Positions 25,554 to 36,418 of a stretch of DNA of 64,000 bases are shown here, piece by piece. Both the position numbers and the translations under genes were made by a program. The notes under the pieces are model-generated. The model was not told the origin of the DNA. It worked only from the letters and a program-made list of their open reading frames with translations, and did not search any database. Every line of letters starts with the position of its first letter. Position 1 is the first letter of the stretch. This stretch comes from Acidobacteriota bacterium. Its GTDB lineage: Bacteria; Acidobacteriota; Vicinamibacteria; Vicinamibacterales; 2-12-FULL-66-21. The DNA lies in contig JACPDI010000040.1 in the NCBI GenBank assembly GCA_016184105.1, positions 124,001-188,000 on the forward strand. The letters run 5' to 3'.

Positions 25554-26768
25554 TCAAGGAATTCGATGAAGGCGATCGAACGCCACCTCGAGCCTGGCGA
25601 CATCCGCGACGCCGTAGGAGAGTCGTATGTGTCCTTCGCCGGCTTCCCCGAAGATCCTGCCCGGCAGCATCAGCACGTGCGCGCGTTCCAGCAGCCGGGA
25701 CGCAAACGCGATGCTGTCCTTCATGCCGTCGATGCGGATGAACGTGAAGAAGCCTCCCGCTGCCGGCACGGCCGACCAGCCGGGCATGCTCGCGAGGCGC
25801 TCCTGCACGTAGTCGCGGCGCCTGCGCAGGTCGCGGAGATACGCGGGCGTGACGCCGCGCCGCGCCTCCAGCGCCGCATGCACCGCCACCTGGCTGATGG
25901 CCGGTGCGCAGATGATGGTCGTGTCCTGCGCCTTGAGGGCCTCTCTGATCAACGTGGGCGGGCCCGCGAGATAGCCGACGCGCCAGCCGGTCATCGAGAA
26001 GACTTTCGAGAAGCTGCCGACAAGGACGACGTTCTCCGGCAGCCGTCCACGTGCGACGTGCGACGGTGCGACGTGCGACGTGCCGTCGAATTCGAACCCT
26101 GCGTAGGTGCGGTCGAGGATCAGGAACATGCCGCGACTTGCGCACTGTTTCGCGATGCGGTCTATCTCCTGCCGCGGCACGACGGCGCCGGTGGGGTTGC
26201 TGGGCGTGGTGATGATGACGGCTTTCAGCGTCTTGCGCCTCGCGGCGCGGCCAGTGTCCCCCTTGAACAGCCGGCGCGATGTAATCACCCATCCCTCGTC
26301 GGCGGTCGTGGGCACTTCGATCGGTACGGCGTCGACGAGGCGCACGGCCATTTCGTGATTCATGAAGTACGGCGTGGGCAGCAGAACGCGATCGCCGGCG
26401 TCGGTGCAGCACTGCAGCGCCAGCATCAGTGCCTGGTTCGCGCCGGCGGTGATGATCAGCTGCCTGTCGGGATCGATGCGGACCCCGTCGTGGCGCGCGA
26501 TCCAGGCGGCGGTGGCGTGCCGCAGCTCGGCGATGCCGGCGTCCGGCGTGTAGACATTCACGTCCGGGCGGCGGAGCGCGCGTCTGGCGGCCGCGAGAGC
26601 CTGCCGCGGCGCCGCGTCCCCGGGAATTGCCTGGCCCAGGTTGACGATGTTGGCTCCGCGCGCGGTGAGCACGCGGGCGCGACGCGCGAGCGTGTCGATC
26701 AAGGGCTCCGAGATGCGGAGGATGCGTTCAGCGAGCACGGGCCACCGGCTGATGAAGTGCCGCGGCAA
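25554..26768 (-). CDS. PLP-dependent aminotransferase, class I/II
   Basis: 404 residues. Motifs: TAGANQALMLALQCCTDAGD (~110-130), TPSNPTGAVVPRQEID (~190), and the PLP lysine in GSFSKVFSMTGWRVGYLAG (~255). The fold-type I large domain is complete and the C-terminus has GGFFTFIRIDGM and GEGHIRLSYGV. The donor and acceptor are unknown. The first ~14 codons overlap the end of the O-antigen ligase gene; a GTG near 26740 is an alternative start. Residues ~230-241 (GTSHVAPSHVARGR) are encoded by a GTGCGAC repeat and look like an insertion in a surface loop. It ends two bases before wecB. Confidence 0.88.
   Translation of the reverse strand: MPRHFISRWPVLAERILRISEPLIDTLARRARVLTARGANIVNLGQAIPGDAAPRQALAAARRALRRPDVNVYTPDAGIAELRHATAAWIARHDGVRIDPDRQLIITAGANQALMLALQCCTDAGDRVLLPTPYFMNHEMAVRLVDAVPIEVPTTADEGWVITSRRLFKGDTGRAARRKTLKAVIITTPSNPTGAVVPRQEIDRIAKQCASRGMFLILDRTYAGFEFDGTSHVAPSHVARGRLPENVVLVGSFSKVFSMTGWRVGYLAGPPTLIREALKAQDTTIICAPAISQVAVHAALEARRGVTPAYLRDLRRRRDYVQERLASMPGWSAVPAAGGFFTFIRIDGMKDSIAFASRLLERAHVLMLPGRIFGEAGEGHIRLSYGVADVARLEVAFDRLHRIP
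26050..26085 (-). repeat. GTGCGAC heptamer repeat inside the aminotransferase gene
   Basis: On the plus strand two GTGCGAC units, a G, two more units and a partial fifth. The frame is maintained; it adds a short Ser/His/Val/Ala segment to the protein between EFDGT and LPENVVLV. Confidence 0.75.
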
Positions 26769-28149
26769 GAACGACCGTGAACAACACGGCGTTGCCCGGC
26801 ATCTGCAAGGAAAAATCGACCGCCTCCTGGAGCGCGATCGCCAGGAGACCTGTCACGGCGCCGATTCGCACCCAGGCGGTCATGGTATCGTCGCCCGCCT
26901 CGAGAAAGCGCCGCCTGACGGCGCGCACGATCGCCACCACCGCGAGCGCGGCCGGCACGAGGAGCAGCAGTCCTCCCTCAGCCGCGACCTGCAGGTAATC
27001 GTTGTGCGCCTCGGCGTAGTGTACTTCGAGGCTCCGCTTCTGGAAGAACAGCGTCGCCACCCCGTACGTGTTCAGACCGCTGCCGAACGGCATGAAGGCC
27101 CGCGCGATGTCCAGCGCGTCCAGCCAGGGTTCTGCGCGCTTCAGGGCATATCCGTCCGCCGCCTGCTGAAAGCGGCTCGCCACGGCCTCGGCGCCGGCCC
27201 ATCCAATGGCCAGCAGCAGCACGAGGGCGAGGTAAGCGGAGAGCACCGCCTTGCGCGCACCGCGTTCGCGGCGGGCGACGAACCAGGCGGTCAGCGTGAC
27301 CGCTCCGGCACAGCACGCGATGCCGGAGCGCGACATCGTCAGCACCAGCGCAAGCGCCATGACGAACACAGCCGATCCGAGCATGACGATCTGGCTCGCG
27401 TCACGCGAGCCGAACCACACGATCCGTTCCCGCAGGCCGCGACGGAGGTGGCGCGTGTCCTGGGCGACACGGCCGCAGAGGTACCCGAGTGACAGACACA
27501 GGGCCATGATCATCCAGCCCGCGTAGTGATTGCGGTTGACGAACGGCCCGAACGGGCTCCCGCCAAGTTCCGGCTCCCAAAAACCGTAGATCCGACCGTC
27601 ATAAAAGGGCTTCTGGACGATGCCAACAATCGCGACGGACGTGCCCAGGATCACCACTCCCGTGGCAAAGGATCGAACACCCACCAGCGACATCATCCGC
27701 GCCACCCCGAACAGCAGGAGTGCCAGCGCGGCGAAAAGCGCGACGGCGAGCCAGGTTGACTCCGGCCGGAGCGAGAGGGGATGGGACGTCAGCAGCCCTG
27801 ACGCGTATTCAACGCTGTACACGCGCAACGTTCGATCGGTCTCAGGGCTCCACCGCGCCAGCGTTGCCTGCGAAAGCGGTACGAGCTGCAGCAGTGGAGC
27901 CGCAAGCGCCAGCAGGATGCCGGCCGCCACCGGCATCGGGATCGTCGGCCCGTGGCGGCGAGTGCCGTGCACCGGCAAGAGGCCAAGGCCTCCGACCACG
28001 GCGGCACCACCAATCAGGGGCCAGTACGCCCAGGAGTACACGGCGCCGAACGCCAGGACACCCCAGGCGGCCAGGCCGAGGACAGCCCACACGAACACTC
28101 GCGCCGTTCTCCTGCCGCCCTGAAACACCGCAGCGCCAACGTGGCTCAT
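26728..28149 (-). CDS. O-antigen ligase / polymerase family membrane protein
   Basis: 473 residues with about ten to twelve hydrophobic segments. The Wzy_C/WaaL-type signature region is near the middle and end: GPFVNRNHYAGWMIMALCLS (~200-220), TMSRSGIACCAGAV (~270), and AEAHNDYLQVAAEGG (~380), the conserved His-Asn-Asp-x-x-Leu of this family. It joins or polymerises oligosaccharide units at the periplasmic face of the inner membrane. Its ATG overlaps the stop of the tyrosine-kinase gene by four bases, and its 3' end overlaps the aminotransferase by 41 bases. In this operon a polymerase role for the exopolysaccharide is more likely than LPS ligase; that is inference. Confidence 0.88.
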   Translation of the reverse strand: MSHVGAAVFQGGRRTARVFVWAVLGLAAWGVLAFGAVYSWAYWPLIGGAAVVGGLGLLPVHGTRRHGPTIPMPVAAGILLALAAPLLQLVPLSQATLARWSPETDRTLRVYSVEYASGLLTSHPLSLRPESTWLAVALFAALALLLFGVARMMSLVGVRSFATGVVILGTSVAIVGIVQKPFYDGRIYGFWEPELGGSPFGPFVNRNHYAGWMIMALCLSLGYLCGRVAQDTRHLRRGLRERIVWFGSRDASQIVMLGSAVFVMALALVLTMSRSGIACCAGAVTLTAWFVARRERGARKAVLSAYLALVLLLAIGWAGAEAVASRFQQAADGYALKRAEPWLDALDIARAFMPFGSGLNTYGVATLFFQKRSLEVHYAEAHNDYLQVAAEGGLLLLVPAALAVVAIVRAVRRRFLEAGDDTMTAWVRIGAVTGLLAIALQEAVDFSLQMPGNAVLFTVVLAAALHQPVARAR

Positions 28150-30404
28150 GCCCGCTTCGCGTAGTATCGCGAGTATTCCTTCCGGTAGTGGTTGGAGTAG
28201 TAGTACGCCTGGCGGTGCAGGTCGACGCGGTTCAGGACCGTGCCCATGACGCGCACGTTGCCCAGGCGTTCCACGGCGGTGGAGACCGCGCGATGGCTGA
28301 CCATGTCAGCTCCGACCACAAACAGGACCCCGGAACATCCATGCGCCGCTACCGTCGCATCCGTCACGGCGAGAACCGGTGGGGTGTCGATAAAGACCCA
28401 GTCGAAGTGCTCGCGGAGGGTCACCAGAAACTGCTTGAACGGGCGGGAGCCCAGAAGTTCTGTCGGATTCGGTGGCAGTTTTCCAGCGGGCAGCACCCAC
28501 AGCGGGAGATCACCAATCTTGCGGATGGTGTGAGCCGGCTTGTGACTCCCGACGAGAATGTTTGAGAGGCCCGGTTCGAGTGGCAGCGAGAAACGCCCGT
28601 GAACCTGGGCCCGGCGCATGTCCGCGTCGATGAGCAGCACGCGGTGGCCCGCTTGAGCGAACGCGGTCGCGAGGTTGGCAGCGACCAGGGTCTTCCCCTC
28701 GCTCGGATCCGTGCTCGTCACGACGACTGAACGGGAACCCTCGTCCGCCGAGGCGAAGATGACGTTGGTCCGCAGCGTGCGCAGCGCCTCGAGAAATAAC
28801 GGTGCCACACCGCGCGCCAGCACCGACCGCGCGTCGGCGGGGTTCGAGTCCACGAGGGGCACGAGGCCGAGAACCGGCATGCCCAGGTGCCGCTTGATGT
28901 CCTCAGGACGGCGGATCCGGTCGTCCAGGCGCTCGAACGCGAAAGCTACTGCGATTGCCAGCACGAGACCCACGGCCGCGCTTCGGGTCAGGCTTTTCCA
29001 GGCATTGGGAGTGATGGGCGCCTGGGGCACTTCCGCCGGATCGATGATCCTGATACTGCTGGTCCGCAGCTCACTGGAGACACCCATCTCCTTGGCTCGC
29101 TGCAGCAGGCTGTCGTAGATCTGCCGCGCGCTTTCGGCTTCGCGCTTCAGCACACCGAACTCGATCGCCTTGTGGTTCATCTCCAGCGCCTCACGCTTGT
29201 GGGCCTCGAGGGCGCCGGCGAGGCTCCGTTCCTGCGCCTGCGCCGAAAGAAAGTCGTTGTGCACGGATTGGACGACCTTCGCCATCTCGACCTGAAGGCG
29301 CGCCTGCGCCGATCGGACCGCCGAACGGATGCGCTCCATCTCCGGATGGCGGTCCCCCAGCTTCTGGGCGAGCTGGGCTTCCTGCCGCTGAAGATTGGAC
29401 AGCTCGAGCCTCTGCTGCTGGAGAAACGTGTTTCCGAGAATCGCGGGAAGGGAATCGAGCGCGGGGGGGTTCCCGCGGGCCGCCGCGAATTGCCTGTAGA
29501 CCGCTTCCTTCTCGATGCGGTCCGTCTTCGCGCGCGTCAGCGCGACGCTGATGTCCGTCACGCGCTGCACGATGATGTTGTCCCGGTCCTCGAGGGAAAT
29601 CGCGTCGTTGCGCTCCCGGTAGCGCTGCAGCGCGTTTTCGGCTGCCTCGACCTGGCTGCGGCTCTCGGCCAGGCGGGCGGCCAGCCAGTCGGTCGCTTCC
29701 TTCGACGTATGGAACCGGAACTCCATCGTCTGTTCGATGTAGGCCTTGGCGTGGCGGTTGACGATCTCGGCGGCCAGCGCCGGGTCGGGCGACCGGAACG
29801 TCACGTCCACCATGCGGCTGTTGCGAATGGGCAAAACGCTGAGCGAACCGAGCAGGGCATCGATGGCGCGGGACTGCCCGCTGGTTTCGCCCGGCAGTGG
29901 CGACGCCTGGGCCCGTGGCGCCCGAAACACTTCGCCAATGGAGCTCGCCGCGGACATAAGCGTCGCCTCCACGCGGTGGAGCAGCCTGGCGGAAGCCGGA
30001 CGGGAGTCTCCTCCGAACGGCGCACGGGACCACAAGTTCAGGTCGCCCAACGTGCGACGCGCAAGCGTGCGACTCTTGAGCAGCGTGTACTGCGTCTCGT
30101 AATAGTCGGTTCGCAACTGGCCTTCCTCGACAGCGCCGCGGAAATTGACGAAGTTCGGCGTCCCGGGATCGATGAGCAGTCGGACCCGCGCCTCGTAGAT
30201 GGACGTCTGGGTGAAGGTGACGGCCACGACGAGCAGCTGCACGAGCAGGAAGACCGCGGCGGCGACCCATCGCCGCCTGTGCAGCACCATGAGCTGTTCG
30301 GTCAGCTGCGGCTGTTCCGAGCGAAAGGGGCCGCGAATCATCGCGCCCGGGAAAGCATCGCGAGCCGGTATCGAGGCGTTGGCGGCGGTTGTGTCGTTGA
30401 ACAT
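28146..30404 (-). CDS. Wzc-like polysaccharide co-polymerase / tyrosine autokinase
   Basis: 752 residues. The N-terminal Wzz domain has a first membrane helix (VAAAVFLLVQLLVVAVTFTQ, ~50-70), a long periplasmic coiled part (~200-440) and a second helix after VPQAPITPNAWKSLTRSAAV (~470-500). The C-terminal BY-kinase has Walker A in TDPSEGKTLVAANLATA (~565), Walker A' LLIDADMRRAQVHG (~590) and Walker B VFIDTPPVLAVTDA (~670). The end is a tyrosine cluster (YYYSNHYRKEYSRYYAKRA) for autophosphorylation. Such proteins set chain length and couple polymerase to export. AGGTC precedes the ATG. Single-polypeptide form (not split GumC/CpsD). Confidence 0.93.
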   Translation of the reverse strand: MFNDTTAANASIPARDAFPGAMIRGPFRSEQPQLTEQLMVLHRRRWVAAAVFLLVQLLVVAVTFTQTSIYEARVRLLIDPGTPNFVNFRGAVEEGQLRTDYYETQYTLLKSRTLARRTLGDLNLWSRAPFGGDSRPASARLLHRVEATLMSAASSIGEVFRAPRAQASPLPGETSGQSRAIDALLGSLSVLPIRNSRMVDVTFRSPDPALAAEIVNRHAKAYIEQTMEFRFHTSKEATDWLAARLAESRSQVEAAENALQRYRERNDAISLEDRDNIIVQRVTDISVALTRAKTDRIEKEAVYRQFAAARGNPPALDSLPAILGNTFLQQQRLELSNLQRQEAQLAQKLGDRHPEMERIRSAVRSAQARLQVEMAKVVQSVHNDFLSAQAQERSLAGALEAHKREALEMNHKAIEFGVLKREAESARQIYDSLLQRAKEMGVSSELRTSSIRIIDPAEVPQAPITPNAWKSLTRSAAVGLVLAIAVAFAFERLDDRIRRPEDIKRHLGMPVLGLVPLVDSNPADARSVLARGVAPLFLEALRTLRTNVIFASADEGSRSVVVTSTDPSEGKTLVAANLATAFAQAGHRVLLIDADMRRAQVHGRFSLPLEPGLSNILVGSHKPAHTIRKIGDLPLWVLPAGKLPPNPTELLGSRPFKQFLVTLREHFDWVFIDTPPVLAVTDATVAAHGCSGVLFVVGADMVSHRAVSTAVERLGNVRVMGTVLNRVDLHRQAYYYSNHYRKEYSRYYAKRA

Positions 30405-30430: not shown

Positions 30431-31294
30431 TCAGAAGAAGCGCTCGGGCACCGTGAGCGTGTCCCCCGCTCGCACGATGTCGCTGAGCTTCACCTTGATC
30501 TCCCGACGCTTGCCGTCGACGAAGCGGATGACTTTGATGCGGTTCAGCGCGGCGAACTGCGTCGCACCGCCCGCAAGCGACAGCGCCTGCAGAACCGTTG
30601 TGTTCGGCTTGATGCCGTACGAGCCCGGGTTCTTGACCTCGCCGAAGACGTAGATCGTCTCTGCCTGCGGTACGAAGATCGTGTCGCCGTCGCGAAGCTC
30701 GATGTTGTGCGACAGCGCACCACTCTGCAATTCGCGAAGGTCGATCGTGATGACCTCGGTGCCGTCTGCCGTCTGCGCGGCCTGGGGCAGCGTCGGCCCC
30801 GTCACACGGCGCGGATCGCGTGCTCGAACGACCAGCGCCTCTCCGGACGCGCTGGGCAGGGCCGAGCCGGCGCGCGCCAGCGCCTCGATGAACCTCATGT
30901 CGCCGGTCAGCGGATACGTGCCCGGGGATCGGACCTCTCCCAGGATGAAGATGCGCTGGCTTCGGAACTGCTCCACCCCGACAGTCACCTGGGGATTCCG
31001 GAGGAACCCGTCCGCGAGACGCCGCTTCAGTTCCTCCTCGAATTCCCGCAGCCTCATGCCCGCGGCTTTCAGGCGGCCGACCAGCGGAAAGTTGATCGTC
31101 CCGTCGGCTTCCACAGTGAACCGGCCCGTGAGGTCCGATTGCTCGAACACCGTGATCTGCAGGATGTCGGGCGGACCAATGATGTACGAGCCGGCGGGCT
31201 GAGCCGAGGCTGCGACGCCGTGCAGCATCAGGACAACGAGCGGCAACTGCATCTGGATGCAGAAGCGAGCGAAGGAGGCTGGAACTGCTGCCAT
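30431..31294 (-). CDS. Polysaccharide export protein, Wza-like
   Basis: 287 residues, start at 31294 (MAAVPASFARFCIQMQL) one base after the stop of the barrel gene. The signal peptide ends AASAQ with no lipobox. The poly-export domain starts YIIGPPDILQITVFEQSDLT (~35-55); two SLBB domains follow: IFILGEVRSPGTYPLTGD (~125) and IYVFGEVKNPGSYGIKPN (~225). It forms or lines the outer-membrane exit path for exopolysaccharide. It lacks the Wza lipid anchor and the long C-terminal helix, so the neighbouring 410-residue barrel may supply the outer-membrane pore; that pairing is inference. The autokinase gene follows 26 bases later. Confidence 0.9.
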   Translation of the reverse strand: MAAVPASFARFCIQMQLPLVVLMLHGVAASAQPAGSYIIGPPDILQITVFEQSDLTGRFTVEADGTINFPLVGRLKAAGMRLREFEEELKRRLADGFLRNPQVTVGVEQFRSQRIFILGEVRSPGTYPLTGDMRFIEALARAGSALPSASGEALVVRARDPRRVTGPTLPQAAQTADGTEVITIDLRELQSGALSHNIELRDGDTIFVPQAETIYVFGEVKNPGSYGIKPNTTVLQALSLAGGATQFAALNRIKVIRFVDGKRREIKVKLSDIVRAGDTLTVPERFF

Positions 31295-31295
31295 G

Positions 31296-32528
31296 TCAGA
31301 AACGCTGGACCACGAACATGCCAACCCGTGTCGAGTTGTACGCGAGTGTCCGCTTCGTGCTTGACTGCCGGTCAACGTACGAGGCGGCGACGCCCACCTG
31401 CCTGCCACGCGGTGAACCATGAGAGATGGAGGCGGTGTAATTCCACGTCAGGTCGACGCGCCCGGGCTTCAGCGCCGCGTCCTCGACGGCCGGAGGAGCT
31501 TGGTCGAACGGGCGGTACGCGTACCAGTTCCGCAGCGCTCCCAGTGAGGCGGCGAAGGACGAGCCAAGGTGTCGCCGCACGACGAGTCCCCACATCTTGA
31601 CGACGTAATAGGGTTCGCGCACCTGATATGAATAGCCGACGTCGCGTTTGGCCGTCAGTTCCAACGAGGTCGAACTCACGATCCTGTATGCGAGCGTCGC
31701 CTGGGCGAACAGCCCCTCATCGTCGGGCAGCTTGCGGCTGAGCGTCCGGAAACGATGCACGCCAACATGGGCCGACCCGGAAACCAGCGCCCGCGGCCGC
31801 ATGTCGACACCTGCGGTGACCCGCGCCGTGTCGGCATTTCTTTCCGGGGCCCACGGGAAGCGATCCGCTTCCGCCTCGACACGCAGCCCAAAGCTGGTCA
31901 ACGGCGTGGCGCGCCACCTGGCGGCGAGACGCCCCGTTCGAGTGTCGCGTCCCAGCGTGTCGCGCAGCTGCACACCGTCGTACATCGCTGTGGCGTCGAA
32001 GCGGGCCTCTGAGACGGCAACGGACGGTTCCAGGTAAAGCTTGCGAAACACGCGCACGGAGACACCCGCCGACCCCGAGCGATGCTCGCGCCGGAGCCTC
32101 GCGTCGATCTCGAAGTTCGGCCGCTGGCGCGTGCTCTCCTCGCCTGCCTCCAGGAAGATCGTCATGCGGTTCAGATAGTGCTCGAGCCTGGCGACGAGGT
32201 TGCCGCTGACCGCGCGCTCCCTGCTGAATCTCCAGTAATAGTCGACGGTCACCGCGCCTGTCGTGGTCAGCAGCGCTTTCCGACCGAACGGAACCGCGGC
32301 GTCGAGATTCTGTCGGAGCGAGAAGGTGAAGTCGGACTCGGGTGCTTCCGCCGAGTTGAACACGTTGTTGTCGACGCCCAGGTTGGTAATGGAGATGGTC
32401 GGCGTCAGGTATAACGGTCCGACGTGAAAGCGTGCATCAGCCCGCGGGTCCGGTTCTGCCTGGCCGGAGGCCGGACGCGAGCAGGTCACGCAGGCGGCCA
32501 CAAGAACGGCAACGCGCAGGAGTCTCAT
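31296..32528 (-). CDS. Outer-membrane beta-barrel protein of the exopolysaccharide operon
   Basis: 410 residues. The signal peptide ends RPASG. The mature part alternates polar and hydrophobic residues as in a barrel: GPLYLTPTISITNLGVDNNV (~38-58), TTTGAVTVDYYWRFSRERAV (~88-107), and it ends RVGMFVVQRF with a C-terminal Phe, the signal used by the barrel assembly machinery. It matches the type of large outer-membrane barrel (BBP2-like) that is often found with Wza-like proteins lacking a lipid anchor. First gene of the operon to Wza, Wzc, polymerase, aminotransferase and wecB. Likely an export pore, by context. Confidence 0.82.
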   Translation of the reverse strand: MRLLRVAVLVAACVTCSRPASGQAEPDPRADARFHVGPLYLTPTISITNLGVDNNVFNSAEAPESDFTFSLRQNLDAAVPFGRKALLTTTGAVTVDYYWRFSRERAVSGNLVARLEHYLNRMTIFLEAGEESTRQRPNFEIDARLRREHRSGSAGVSVRVFRKLYLEPSVAVSEARFDATAMYDGVQLRDTLGRDTRTGRLAARWRATPLTSFGLRVEAEADRFPWAPERNADTARVTAGVDMRPRALVSGSAHVGVHRFRTLSRKLPDDEGLFAQATLAYRIVSSTSLELTAKRDVGYSYQVREPYYVVKMWGLVVRRHLGSSFAASLGALRNWYAYRPFDQAPPAVEDAALKPGRVDLTWNYTASISHGSPRGRQVGVAASYVDRQSSTKRTLAYNSTRVGMFVVQRF

Positions 32529-32642: not shown

Positions 32643-33143
32643 CTACCGCGACGGGCTCGCGTTGTTCGTGGTCGCAACCACTCCCGCGGTCAGCCCCACC
32701 GCGACGCCGCCGATGATGGCCGCGCTGGCCGCCGAGCCGAGGCCGAATATCCCGAAGCCGGCGCCGCCGGCGGCCGCGAGGGCACCTGCCGCGCTGGCGG
32801 TCACCGCCACTGTCGCCATCGTGCCGGCCGCCACGCTGATCGGAACAGTGGTGCCGACGATCTGGCCGGCGGCGTTCACCATTTCCACCACGTAGTTCCC
32901 CGGATTGAGGCCGGTGAACGTGAACTGCCCAGAGGCGTTGGTCGTGCCGGTGCCGGCGAGCTGCCCCGTCTGCACGTTGCGGATCTGCACGGTGTGGTTC
33001 GCGAGGGTCTGCTGCTGGGCGTTCCGGGCGACGCCCTGCACCCCTCCCGTCTGATCCTGGCGCGGCACGACGCGCGCCGCGCCGACGGGAATGGCCGAAA
33101 CCGCAACCGCGAGACACGTCAACGCCGAGAGAATCTTTCGCAT
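32643..33143 (-). CDS. Secreted carboxypeptidase-regulatory-like protein
   Basis: 166 residues. AGAGG precedes the ATG and the signal peptide ends PVGAARV. Residues ~35-100 form a regulatory-like beta-sandwich (GVQGVARNAQQQTLANHTVQ, GQFTFTGLNPGNYVVEMVNA). The last ~60 residues are almost only Ala, Gly, Val (LAAAGGAGFGIFGLGSAASA), a probable membrane-spanning or glycine-zipper segment. Between the exopolysaccharide operon and the NtrC-like gene on the same strand. The role is unknown; small proteins with this layout are common near acidobacterial polysaccharide loci as far as I recall. Confidence 0.75.
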   Translation of the reverse strand: MRKILSALTCLAVAVSAIPVGAARVVPRQDQTGGVQGVARNAQQQTLANHTVQIRNVQTGQLAGTGTTNASGQFTFTGLNPGNYVVEMVNAAGQIVGTTVPISVAAGTMATVAVTASAAGALAAAGGAGFGIFGLGSAASAAIIGGVAVGLTAGVVATTNNASPSR

Positions 33144-33259
33144 GGAGCCTCTGTGCGTTTCGCGCTGCAGAGTCTGGTTTATCTCTGCGGTTGGGTCAAT
33201 AGAACGAAAGCCGATCTGTATCGAAACTGCAACGTGATGTTGTAGGGAGACGCGCGCCG

Positions 33260-34552
33260 CTAAGCCCTTCCCTCGCCTTTAATTATGGACAGCTGCTTCA
33301 TCTTTCTATACAGGTTGGTCCGCTCGATCCCGAGCTCGGAGGCCGCCGCTTCCATCCGCCAGCCATGGCGCTGGAGGGCGGAGGCGATGAATTCGCGCTC
33401 GAACTGATGCCGGGCCTCCCGGAGGGTCCCGACGGTGCCCCCCCGGGCGCTGGCACCGTCGAACCGCACGTGCTGAAGGACGTCCTCCTGAAGGACGACG
33501 CCACGCGGGACCATGACGGCGAGGCGCTCGACCAGGCCGCGCAGCTCCGCGGCGTTGCCCCGCCAGGGGAGGGACGAGAGCAGCGCGAGCGCGCTGCGCG
33601 AGAAGCTCTTGGCGGCCATGTCGTGGCGCGCGCAGGCCTCTTTCATGAAGAGCAGGGCGAGCAGCGGGATGTCCTGCGACCGCTCGCGAAGCGTGGGCAG
33701 CTCGAGCCGGACGACGGAGAGCGCCTCGAAGAGGGTGCGGCGGAAGGTGCGGCGATCGGTAAAGCCGTCAATGCGCGGCTGCGCTCCAGCAACCGTGCGC
33801 ACGGTGGGATGGCCGTTGTCCAGCACGGGCGCGTCCTGCGCACCGCGCAGCCATCTCTCGAGCCGCGCCTGCGCCGGCTCTGGCAGCAGGCTGACGTCTT
33901 CGATGTAGAGGGTGCCTCCCCGGTGGTGCTCGATCGCACGGGCGAGCTCCCGCGTGCAGTCGGCGCCCGCGACGACTTTGACGAACTCGCCGTCACGCTG
34001 CGGCCCGTAACGGTGGATGGCGCGCGCCACCGTCTCGCGGCCGGTCCCCCGCTCCCCGACGAGGAGGATCGGGCAGCGGCTCGCCGCCACGCGGCGCGCG
34101 ATCTCGTACACATCGCGCATGCGTGGGGACAGCGTGAACAGGCCGTCGATCGCGGCCTCGGCAACCGGCTGCGGCTTGCGTCCGGCCAGTCCGGCGAACT
34201 CGCGGACGTTGGCAAGCGCCGACAGCATGTCGGCTTCCCGCACCGGCCGGGTGATGATGTCCACGACGCCCAGACGGAGCGCCTCGGCGGTGCTGCCGGC
34301 GTCGCGGCGGTCGGCGATCGCGATGGTCCAGGCGCTGTGGTTGTTCGTCACGAGGGCGCGCAGGAACTTCAGCGATTCCTGGCGCAGGGCGAGATCGACG
34401 AGGGCGAACGCCGGACCTTCCGGGAGCGCGTCCGTCGCCTTGGCGGCGGTGCCCACGGTGATGACGCTGTAGCCGCGCGCGCCCAGCCATTCGGCGATGC
34501 GCGCGGGGTCCGCGGAGTCCGCGGAGTCCGCGGAGAGAATGATGACTTTCAT
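33260..34552 (-). CDS. Degenerate NtrC-like regulator (receiver, AAA+, Fis-type HTH)
   Basis: 430 residues. A receiver-like domain (1-120) keeps an Asp in FALVDLAL but the conserved Lys is Arg (IITRPV). The AAA+ domain has Walker A GERGTGRE, with Arg instead of Lys, and GGTLYIEDVSLLPEPAQ in the Walker B place. The segment between them is short and contains no GAFTGA loop, which sigma-54 contact requires. LRERSQDIPLLALLF and PWRGNAAELRGLVERL are intact, and the end is a clear Fis HTH (AASELGIERTNLYRKMKQL). So it probably binds DNA but cannot act as a usual sigma-54 activator. Residues 8-16 (SADSADSAD) come from a 9-bp tandem repeat. Likely regulator of the adjacent polysaccharide genes, by position only. 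Confidence 0.85.
   Translation of the reverse strand: MKVIILSADSADSADPARIAEWLGARGYSVITVGTAAKATDALPEGPAFALVDLALRQESLKFLRALVTNNHSAWTIAIADRRDAGSTAEALRLGVVDIITRPVREADMLSALANVREFAGLAGRKPQPVAEAAIDGLFTLSPRMRDVYEIARRVAASRCPILLVGERGTGRETVARAIHRYGPQRDGEFVKVVAGADCTRELARAIEHHRGGTLYIEDVSLLPEPAQARLERWLRGAQDAPVLDNGHPTVRTVAGAQPRIDGFTDRRTFRRTLFEALSVVRLELPTLRERSQDIPLLALLFMKEACARHDMAAKSFSRSALALLSSLPWRGNAAELRGLVERLAVMVPRGVVLQEDVLQHVRFDGASARGGTVGTLREARHQFEREFIASALQRHGWRMEAAASELGIERTNLYRKMKQLSIIKGEGRA
34509..34535 (-). repeat. Three tandem copies of TCCGCGGAG in a receiver domain
   Basis: Exact 9-bp units, read as Ser-Ala-Asp three times near the N-terminus of the NtrC-like protein. A related fragment (AGTCCGCGGA) stands upstream of the gene at 34571-34580. 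Confidence 0.85.
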
Positions 34553-35327: not shown

Positions 35328-36287
35328 TCATGCGTGCACGGCGTCCGTGTCCCTGAACGCGCGCTGATGTTCGAGGAACCACCTGTAAGTTGACGCGATG
35401 CCCCTGCGGAGCGGCGTCCGGTGGCGCCAGCCAAGCGCGTGCAGCTTGGAGACGTCCAGGAGCTTGCGTGGAGCGCCATCCGGTTTCGTCGTGTCGTACA
35501 CGATCTTCGCGTCCGGATACACCGCGTCGCGCACCATCCCCGCCAGATCCGCGATGGTCACGTCCTCGCCCGTGCCGACGTTCACGTGCGCGCTCTCGTC
35601 GTACCGCTCCATCAGGAAGGCGCAGGCGTCCGCGAGATCGTCCACGTGCAGAAACTCGCGTCGAGGCGCGCCGGTGCCCCAGATCGTCACCTCGCGCGCG
35701 CCGGCCTCCTTCGCGTCGTGGAACTTGCGGATGAGCGCCGGCAGCACGTGCGAGCTGGCAAGAGCGAAGTTGTCGTTCGGGCCGTACAGATTCGTCGGCA
35801 TCGCCGAGATGAAGTTCGACCCGTACTGCGCGCGATACGCCTGGCACAACTTGATGCCCGCGATCTTCGCGATGGCGTACGACTCGTTGGTGGGCTCGAG
35901 CGGGCCGCTCAGCAGCGCGTCTTCCGTCATCGGCTGCGGCGCGAGCCGCGGATAAATGCAGGAGCTGCCGAGATACAGCAGCTTCTTCACGCCGAACAGG
36001 TGCGCCGCGTGCACCACCGTCGCGTGAATGAGCATGTTGTCGTAGATGAACTCGGCGGGGCGCGTGGAGTTGGCGAGGATGCCGCCAACGGTGCCCGCCA
36101 CCAGGAAGACGTACTCGGGCCGGTTCGCCTTGAACCAGTAGTTCACCGCCGCCTGATCGCGCAGGTCGAGCTGCTCGCGCGTGGCAAGGAGCAGGTCCCG
36201 GTGGCCGTCCGCCTCGAGCTTACGAACCAGCGCCGAGCCCACCAGGCCCCTGTGCCCGGCGACGTAAACGCGGGAATGCGAGTCCAT
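35328..36287 (-). CDS. fcl: GDP-L-fucose synthase
   Basis: 319 residues, family length. NADP-binding motif [12 protein letters not shown] (~8-19); active-site Ser/Tyr/Lys in GSSCIYP (~107) and [10 protein letters not shown] (~135, YxxxK); [20 protein letters not shown] (~166-185) and [13 protein letters not shown] (~210) are typical of this epimerase-reductase. It makes GDP-L-fucose from GDP-4-keto-6-deoxymannose. The matching GDP-mannose dehydratase (gmd) is not in the window. It lies near the exopolysaccharide genes, so fucose is a probable component of the polymer. Confidence 0.94.
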
Positions 36288-36418
36288 ACTGACTCAAGGC
36301 CAAAGGCGCCGCGAGCCCAAGGCCAAGGATGCCTGCTTAAAGGTCGAGGTAGATGGGAATAATCTCATCCGTTGGTGGAAGAGTCAAGACAGATGTTGCA
36401 TGTTTGATACTGAACGCA

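Follow-up and report, generated by a model that had tools for sequence, protein, structure and literature searches.

TyrR is an NtrC-family regulator without a GAFTGA loop that carries ACT and PAS sensing domains and contacts RNA polymerase at the promoters it activates. The PrsR-type PEP-CTERM response regulators (TIGR02915), likewise of NtrC type, are linked to exopolysaccharide loci. In the Enterobacteriaceae, TyrR is described as regulating promoters both ways, as is proposed below for the regulator studied here; weak and strong copies of its box, TGTAAA-N6-TTTACA, pair, and a strong box over the -35 element represses (PMC4374768, in the part of the article available). VpsR of Vibrio cholerae combines a receiver-like domain with loss of GAFTGA and a changed Walker B motif, and its control of polysaccharide genes is presented in the accessible sections of PMC9303241. 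Similarly, the GAFTGA-less NtrC proteins of Caulobacter and Rhodobacter capsulatus act at sigma-70 promoters, and ATP binding (R. capsulatus) or binding plus hydrolysis (Caulobacter) has been reported as needed (PMC10274813, in the available excerpt). NtrX of Brucella (5m7n) also lacks GAFTGA in our alignment.

A gene for a degenerate NtrC-type regulator, termed REG here, lies in the window, i.e. the whole 64,000-nucleotide stretch of DNA that was analysed. The gene and its motifs are as follows.

33260..34552, minus strand: REG, degenerate NtrC-type regulator, ATG start, 430 amino acids
34388..34408, minus strand: receiver region FALVDLA, Asp53 retained (by alignment)
34244..34258, minus strand: IITRP, receiver Lys-to-Arg change (by alignment)
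34034..34060, minus strand: Walker A VGERGTGRE, Arg172 where Lys is expected (by alignment)
33917..33964, minus strand: shortened L1 stretch without GAFTGA (ADCTRELARAIEHHRG, residues 197-212)
33893..33919, minus strand: degenerate Walker B GGTLYIEDV (by alignment)
33713..33745, minus strand: arginine-finger region FRRTLFEALSV, second Arg gone (by alignment)
33290..33424, minus strand: conserved linker and Fis-type HTH (LREARHQFE...LGIERTNLYRKMKQL), HTH_8 47.4 bits

A preliminary description of this DNA had listed a receiver Lys changed to Arg, a replaced Walker A Lys, an altered Walker B acidic pair, a missing GAFTGA loop and a well-kept Fis HTH. The aligned sequence confirms each of these readings: REG reads IITRP, GERGTGRE with Arg172 and YIEDV in place of FLDE, has neither GAFTGA nor GSFTGA in an L1 region cut down to about 16 residues, and has an HTH_8 match well above the cut-off of 22 bits. 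Beyond that list, Gln has taken the place of the sensor I Asn, and Ala277 and Ala335 stand where the second arginine-finger Arg and the sensor II Arg are expected; the losses had thus, if anything, been under-counted. Alignment with a canonical paralogue revealed that, of the residues that make a response regulator phosphorylatable (acidic pair, Asp, T/S and Lys), Asp53 (ALVDL) alone is retained; the acidic pair is gone (IILSADSA), the T/S switch position is Ala, and the Pfam Response_reg match stays at 21.1 bits, below the cut-off of 30.2. Among the features of a sigma-54 activator (bacterial enhancer-binding protein, bEBP), the AAA+ core, lid and Fis HTH are present (62.1, 58.9 and 47.4 bits in Pfam, all above cut-off), and the GAFTGA loop and the Walker A Lys/Walker B DE are absent.

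An AlphaFold2 model of REG, built from a 32-row alignment, had a mean pLDDT of 87.5 and a pTM of 0.69. Foldseek with VIA-align placed NtrX, NtrC1, FlrC, FleQ and VpsR as its neighbours, and the model matches the structures 1ny6 and 6luf. The structure prediction proposed in the preliminary description thus recovers a bEBP fold; in the model REG keeps this fold, with the losses confined to chemistry and the L1 loop. The suggestion made there of a DNA-binding protein with a dead AAA+ fold is accordingly supported by the motif losses, the intact HTH and the model.

NtrX is the best match to REG both in sequence and in Foldseek; unlike REG, it has the Walker A Lys and the Walker B DE. The NtrC proteins of Caulobacter and R. 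capsulatus control the nitrogen regulon and TyrR an amino-acid regulon, whereas REG sits at polysaccharide genes and adjoins those for export. Scored against family models, REG reached 80.6 bits for TyrR (NCBIfam equivalog cut-off 576), 152.6 bits for NtrX (NCBIfam equivalog cut-off 600), 149.8 bits for the PrsR type (TIGR02915 cut-off 502.6) and 19.2 bits for the Pfam VpsR N-terminal domain (cut-off 23.7), and was assigned to none of them.

Four clear orthologues of REG (in G004, G007, G013 and G024), with 46-51% identity, were found among the 60 nearest genomes; the frame is intact in all four, one being cut by a contig end. A wider scan of genome contigs gave 71 loci, mostly from MAGs of Acidobacteria/Vicinamibacteria. 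The REG genes of L071, L082, L116, L123, L128 and others lay under antisense ORFs and were found through matched-frame reading and an all-ORF scan. In a tree that omitted the fragments L122 and L118, 46 GAFTGA-less proteins were separated from 42 canonical relatives at 100/100, and the split persisted with the lid and HTH only, motif columns removed (SH-aLRT 99). On this sequence evidence the GAFTGA-less clade has a single origin and REG is not a lone oddity. GAFTGA is absent in all 46 aligned members, and the Walker A Lys occurs in one of them (L042) versus 42 of 42 canonical rows; since the orthologue L042 retains this Lys, its loss is not universal in the clade. Because the same losses recur in 46 aligned members, those in REG are due neither to chance nor to sequencing error. 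HTH residues R, N, Y, R and K are invariant in 46/46 members. REG itself shows the marks of the clade: it is GAFTGA-less, and it has an (E/Q)R(T/P)NLYRK HTH, an exopolysaccharide export neighbourhood and a GTRTY-N6 operator, present in the window as a GCAAC variant.

Clade members come almost all from Acidobacteriota MAGs. Two, L058 and L117, derive from MAGs that bear the names Bifidobacterium breve and Acidimicrobiia, and their contigs are probably mis-binned acidobacterial DNA. Searches in the open part of PMC yielded no paper on the clade or its operator, nor on a NusG paralogue at polysaccharide loci in Acidobacteriota.

The many lost catalytic residues could be taken to indicate a decaying, functionless pseudogene. 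Such decay is scarcely credible given the intact frames, the HTH residues invariant in 46/46 members, the single clade and the conserved operon and operator described below. Another reading is that REG is a VpsR-like, c-di-GMP-responsive activator whose AAA+ pocket binds the dinucleotide and which turns on polysaccharide genes at sigma-70 promoters. VpsR is a long structural match (7v2b, Z 24.6 over 310 residues, rmsd 8.2), GAFTGA is likewise missing and Walker B altered in its aligned sequence, and it works at vps promoters with sigma-70 RNA polymerase and c-di-GMP (PMC9303241, accessible sections). Against this, both VpsR and NtrX fell outside the clade when added to the tree, VpsR as sister having an unsupported SH-aLRT of 74.6; further, the Pfam VpsR domain match of REG is below its cut-off, and VpsR retains the Walker A Lys where REG has Arg172. 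We consider this reading unlikely.

The neighbours of REG in the window are the following.

35328..36287, minus strand: NAD-dependent epimerase (GDP-fucose-synthase-like), first gene past the upstream operator in this genome
34591..35223, minus strand: LIP, conserved lipoprotein directly upstream of REG, with repeats of the DxDxDG type and an inferred GTG start
32643..33143, minus strand: CpD, small secreted CarboxypepD_reg/SpaA-like protein
31296..32528, minus strand: BBP2_2 outer-membrane beta-barrel
30431..31420, minus strand: Wza-type polysaccharide export protein (Poly_export and SLBB)
28146..30404, minus strand: Wzc-type co-polymerase/kinase (Wzz/GNVR/CbiA)
26728..28149, minus strand: Wzy_C O-antigen ligase/polymerase-like protein

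REG had earlier been tied to the neighbouring Wza/Wzc genes, with a suggested search for orthologues showing the same losses beside such genes. These orthologues exist in the same place, and the export-gene linkage is conserved across the clade, the usual gene order being LIP, REG, CpD, BBP2, Wza, Wzc. Among members with at least 3 kb of downstream sequence, Wza, Wzc or BBP2 was found within 6 kb downstream on the same strand in 34/40 GAFTGA-less versus 4/33 canonical cases, the canonical comparison set not being random because several of its proteins come from the same loci. LIP lies no more than 400 nt upstream in 16 of the 25 long clade members with room for it, versus 0/35 canonical proteins. 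Conservation of LIP upstream of REG is paralleled in REG-less loci. Its AlphaFold2 model (mean pLDDT 90.9) is a flat beta-sheet that weakly matches OspA and sheets of the YD/Rhs type, and LIP is possibly calcium-binding.

In this genome each of the four Wza genes has a nearby upstream gene of NtrC type; two of these are degenerate (C40 and C55) and two canonical (C31 and C27). The canonical enhancer-binding proteins near upstream at the C31 (L126) and C27 (L127) loci carry GAFTGA/GSFTGA. A gene of a canonical NtrC-type subclade was also seen no more than about 10 kb from the degenerate regulator in eight loci (L044, L045, L058, L062, L065, L066, L096 and L104). This recurring gene is kin of L008 from the same genome as REG, which lies near the NusG match of this genome on C12.

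A leader element, TGTRANNSANRGGGCGRAGC(TGTA), was matched 58 times, in 47 of the order's 120 genomes scanned, and its reversed pattern never. In most loci inspected (10 unassigned) it stands at the start of polysaccharide operons, whether REG is present or not. This independent element served as the anchor for scoring a candidate operator, the 16-bp dyad GTRTY-N6-GAYAC (GTATC-N6-GCAAC in the window subclade), in the 260 nt upstream of it. Of 49 regions upstream of clade members, 29 contain TTGACAC on either strand and 6 the dyad GTGTC-N6-GACAC, where shuffled sequences gave at most 2-4 for their best dyad. The geometry of the TyrR box, two arms separated by N6, equals that of TGTATC-N6-GATACA and is the closest operator match (PMC4374768, available part).

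On a first pass, the dyad was present in 31/37 loci with REG (REG+) versus 0/9 loci that were without it (REG-) or unassigned, about 2/46 being expected from shuffles. The consensus was built on L040-L125, and L133 and later loci were held out. Among the latter the dyad was found in 8/9 REG+ versus 1/17 REG- loci (Fisher p 5e-5), and over all loci in 34/41 versus 1/17 (p 4e-8); these p values are guides, because loci are not independent samples, and relatedness is only partly controlled. The final count leaves out L178, with 622 nt downstream only, and the 10 unclear leader-element loci. L167, which overlaps at its end with the start of L043, was for that reason reclassified from REG- to REG+ and counted there as lacking the symmetric operator; before the changes to L167 and L178 the held-out count stood at 8/8 versus 1/19. 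No REG turned up when the loci kept as REG- were searched in translation. The dyad is below threshold in 7/41 REG+ loci, and TTGACAC is present in one REG- locus. L165, which is outside the count, has the operator and TTGACAC on a contig that ends after 54 nt.

REG+ and REG- loci both occur inside families f2, f5 and f6, and genome G028 has TTGACAC at its REG+ locus and none at its REG- locus; therefore the site tracks the gene better than the taxon. The held-out counts cover the symmetric dyad, the GCAAC half-site of the window subclade having been found by eye. Like the motif losses, the clade and the gene linkage, the operator and its occurrence together with REG are direct results of the computation.

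TTGACAC is followed by a -10 element (at least 4/6 matches to TATAAT, 15-18 bp spacing) in 22/31 promoters versus 181/1550 shuffles, and 26/32 have an extra GTRTC 20-23 bp further upstream than the proximal site (about 2 expected). These patterns suggest that the operon promoters bearing the dyad are sigma-70-like and that the dyad is usually doubled, at a distance of about two helical turns. Outside the window subclade, the proximal dyad reaches from about -45 to about -30 and includes an exact TTGACA. Tandem copies 20-23 bp apart would be compatible with assembly through the AAA+ fold, as suggested in the preliminary description. Promoters of the receiver-less subclade (L048:9337-9430 and kin) carry additional direct repeats of AAGTC type, which follow the operator on its downstream side.

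Sigma-54 sites were not in excess at clade operons in a scan without a lineage positive control, with 2/49 upstream (0.55 expected) and 0/48 downstream (0.45 expected). This lack of an excess of sigma-54 sites, together with the alteration of all catalytic motifs and the missing L1 loop, makes it very improbable that REG is an unusual working sigma-54 activator with a replacement contact loop, even though it has the NtrC family fold and RpoN is encoded in this genome.

The predicted sites in the window are given below.

36395..36410, minus strand: predicted operator GTATC-N6-GCAAC, upstream of the operon containing REG (epimerase-LIP-REG)
36382..36387, minus strand: putative sigma-70 -35 TTGACT, with -10 GATTAT at 36359-36364 and a 17 bp spacer
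33218..33233, reading on the plus strand: predicted operator GTATC-N6-GCAAC, in the REG-CpD gap, centre near -62 of the putative export promoter
33194..33199, minus strand: putative -35 TTGACC of the export operon, with a weak -10 CAGACT at 33171-33176

A broader pattern, GTATC-N7-CAAC, has two matches in the 64 kb, where 0.14 were expected. The operator at 36395-36410 lies just upstream of TTGACT-N17-GATTAT, as the operator of the window subclade ends just before the -35, and this layout is repeated upstream of LIP in L040, L041 and L042. In G024 (L167), the operator is downstream of the leader element instead. The operator in the gap is conserved in L040, L041 (ACAAC), L042 (TCAAC) and L043 (ACAAC). 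GTATC-N6-GCAAC has seven copies in this 4.24 Mb genome, two of them at the REG locus. The C55 paralogue has the other operator type upstream, one of two copies of GTRTY-N4-TTGACAC in the genome.

Upstream, helically phased spacing is of the CRP type, seen with activators that touch RNA polymerase. The second, export-side operators lie at about -62, -84, -84 and -74 in the window subclade and at about -83, -83, -83 and -104 in another. With -35 boxes picked by a TTGA[CT] search and one value per distinct spacing and subclade (five values, from few promoters with weak -10 boxes), these positions were phased at a 10.5-bp period (R 0.93, simulated p 0.004); L043, with a nearer TTGACG at -58 and no -10, was left out.

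The preliminary description had suggested that REG is perhaps a repressor of the adjacent polysaccharide genes, and on this the operator positions point both ways: the own-promoter operator over the -35 in other subclades would fit repression, whereas the phased export-side operator upstream of the -35 suits activation. A pure local repressor, in which REG over -35 operators shuts the polysaccharide operon until a signal frees it, is doubtful. The proximal operators at -45 to -30 with a perfect TTGACA in the non-window subclades agree with it, as does repression by a strong TyrR box over the -35 of tyrP (PMC4374768, available part). However, the export-side operator is placed upstream of the -35, phased and at activator-like distances, and the operon operator of the window subclade stops just upstream of the -35. 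Because the own-promoter site covers the -35 in other subclades while the export-side site is upstream and phased, a dual regulator is favoured; we infer the sign of control at each promoter from these positions.

Taken as a dual regulator, REG probably autoregulates and activates polysaccharide export in a TyrR/VpsR-like, non-sigma-54 manner. It would bind the 16-bp dyads, of the GTATC-N6-GATAC type or, in the window subclade, GTATC-N6-GCAAC. Outside that subclade it probably limits its own synthesis from the proximal copy, because this copy overlaps the -35. At the CpD-BBP2-Wza-Wzc promoter, activation through contact with RNA polymerase, in the fashion of TyrR, is proposed because the site is upstream of the -35 in helical phase. 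Oligomerisation would be the role left to the dead AAA+ core, perhaps along with the binding of a ligand, and Asp53, a nucleotide or another ligand may bring the signal. We thus regard it as rather probable that REG is a former sigma-54 enhancer-binding protein which has lost its ATPase and contact loop and is now an operator-binding regulator of sigma-70 promoters at an exopolysaccharide export locus.

The leader element used as anchor may add a second stage of control. It is absent from the window locus and present at the C55 locus of the same genome. Examples of the element and of a divergent NusG paralogue are listed here.

L052:8106-8125, L128:7105-7124 and L048:9337-9356: leader element TGTRANNSANRGGGCGRAGC(TGTA) in other genomes
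G000:C55:8808-8827: leader element TGTRANNSANRGGGCGRAGC(TGTA) in this genome
L052:7334-7894, L128:6503-7045 and L135:3038-3676: divergent NusG paralogue, just upstream of the leader element and polysaccharide genes

The core of the element resembles the ops site GGCGGTAG of RfaH (PMC6358824, in the portion available). Comparison with Rfam gave sub-threshold matches only and no curated RNA family, both around the window and in five leader-element loci. A second, divergent NusG protein was found in 11/15 genomes searched, in several of them at the same locus as the leader element; it scores about 70 bits versus 110 for the housekeeping NusG. A broader proposal, tentative and less probable than not, is that a single loss of the motor from an enhancer-binding protein of Vicinamibacteria-type Acidobacteriota gave rise to clade-wide sigma-70 regulators that work independently of ATP, with an operator code of their own and one paralogue per exopolysaccharide locus. 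Control would then have two stages, initiation through the dead AAA+ protein and elongation through the NusG paralogue with an ops-like leader.

NtrC relatives without GAFTGA have been known so far as scattered cases, and in the present data dozens of proteins form a whole clade marked by this loss. The clade, its predicted operator and the fixed gene neighbourhood together therefore make the change from a sigma-54 ATPase to a sigma-70 regulator testable by binding assays on short DNA. They also offer a first way into the control of exopolysaccharide in a major soil phylum with hardly any cultured members.
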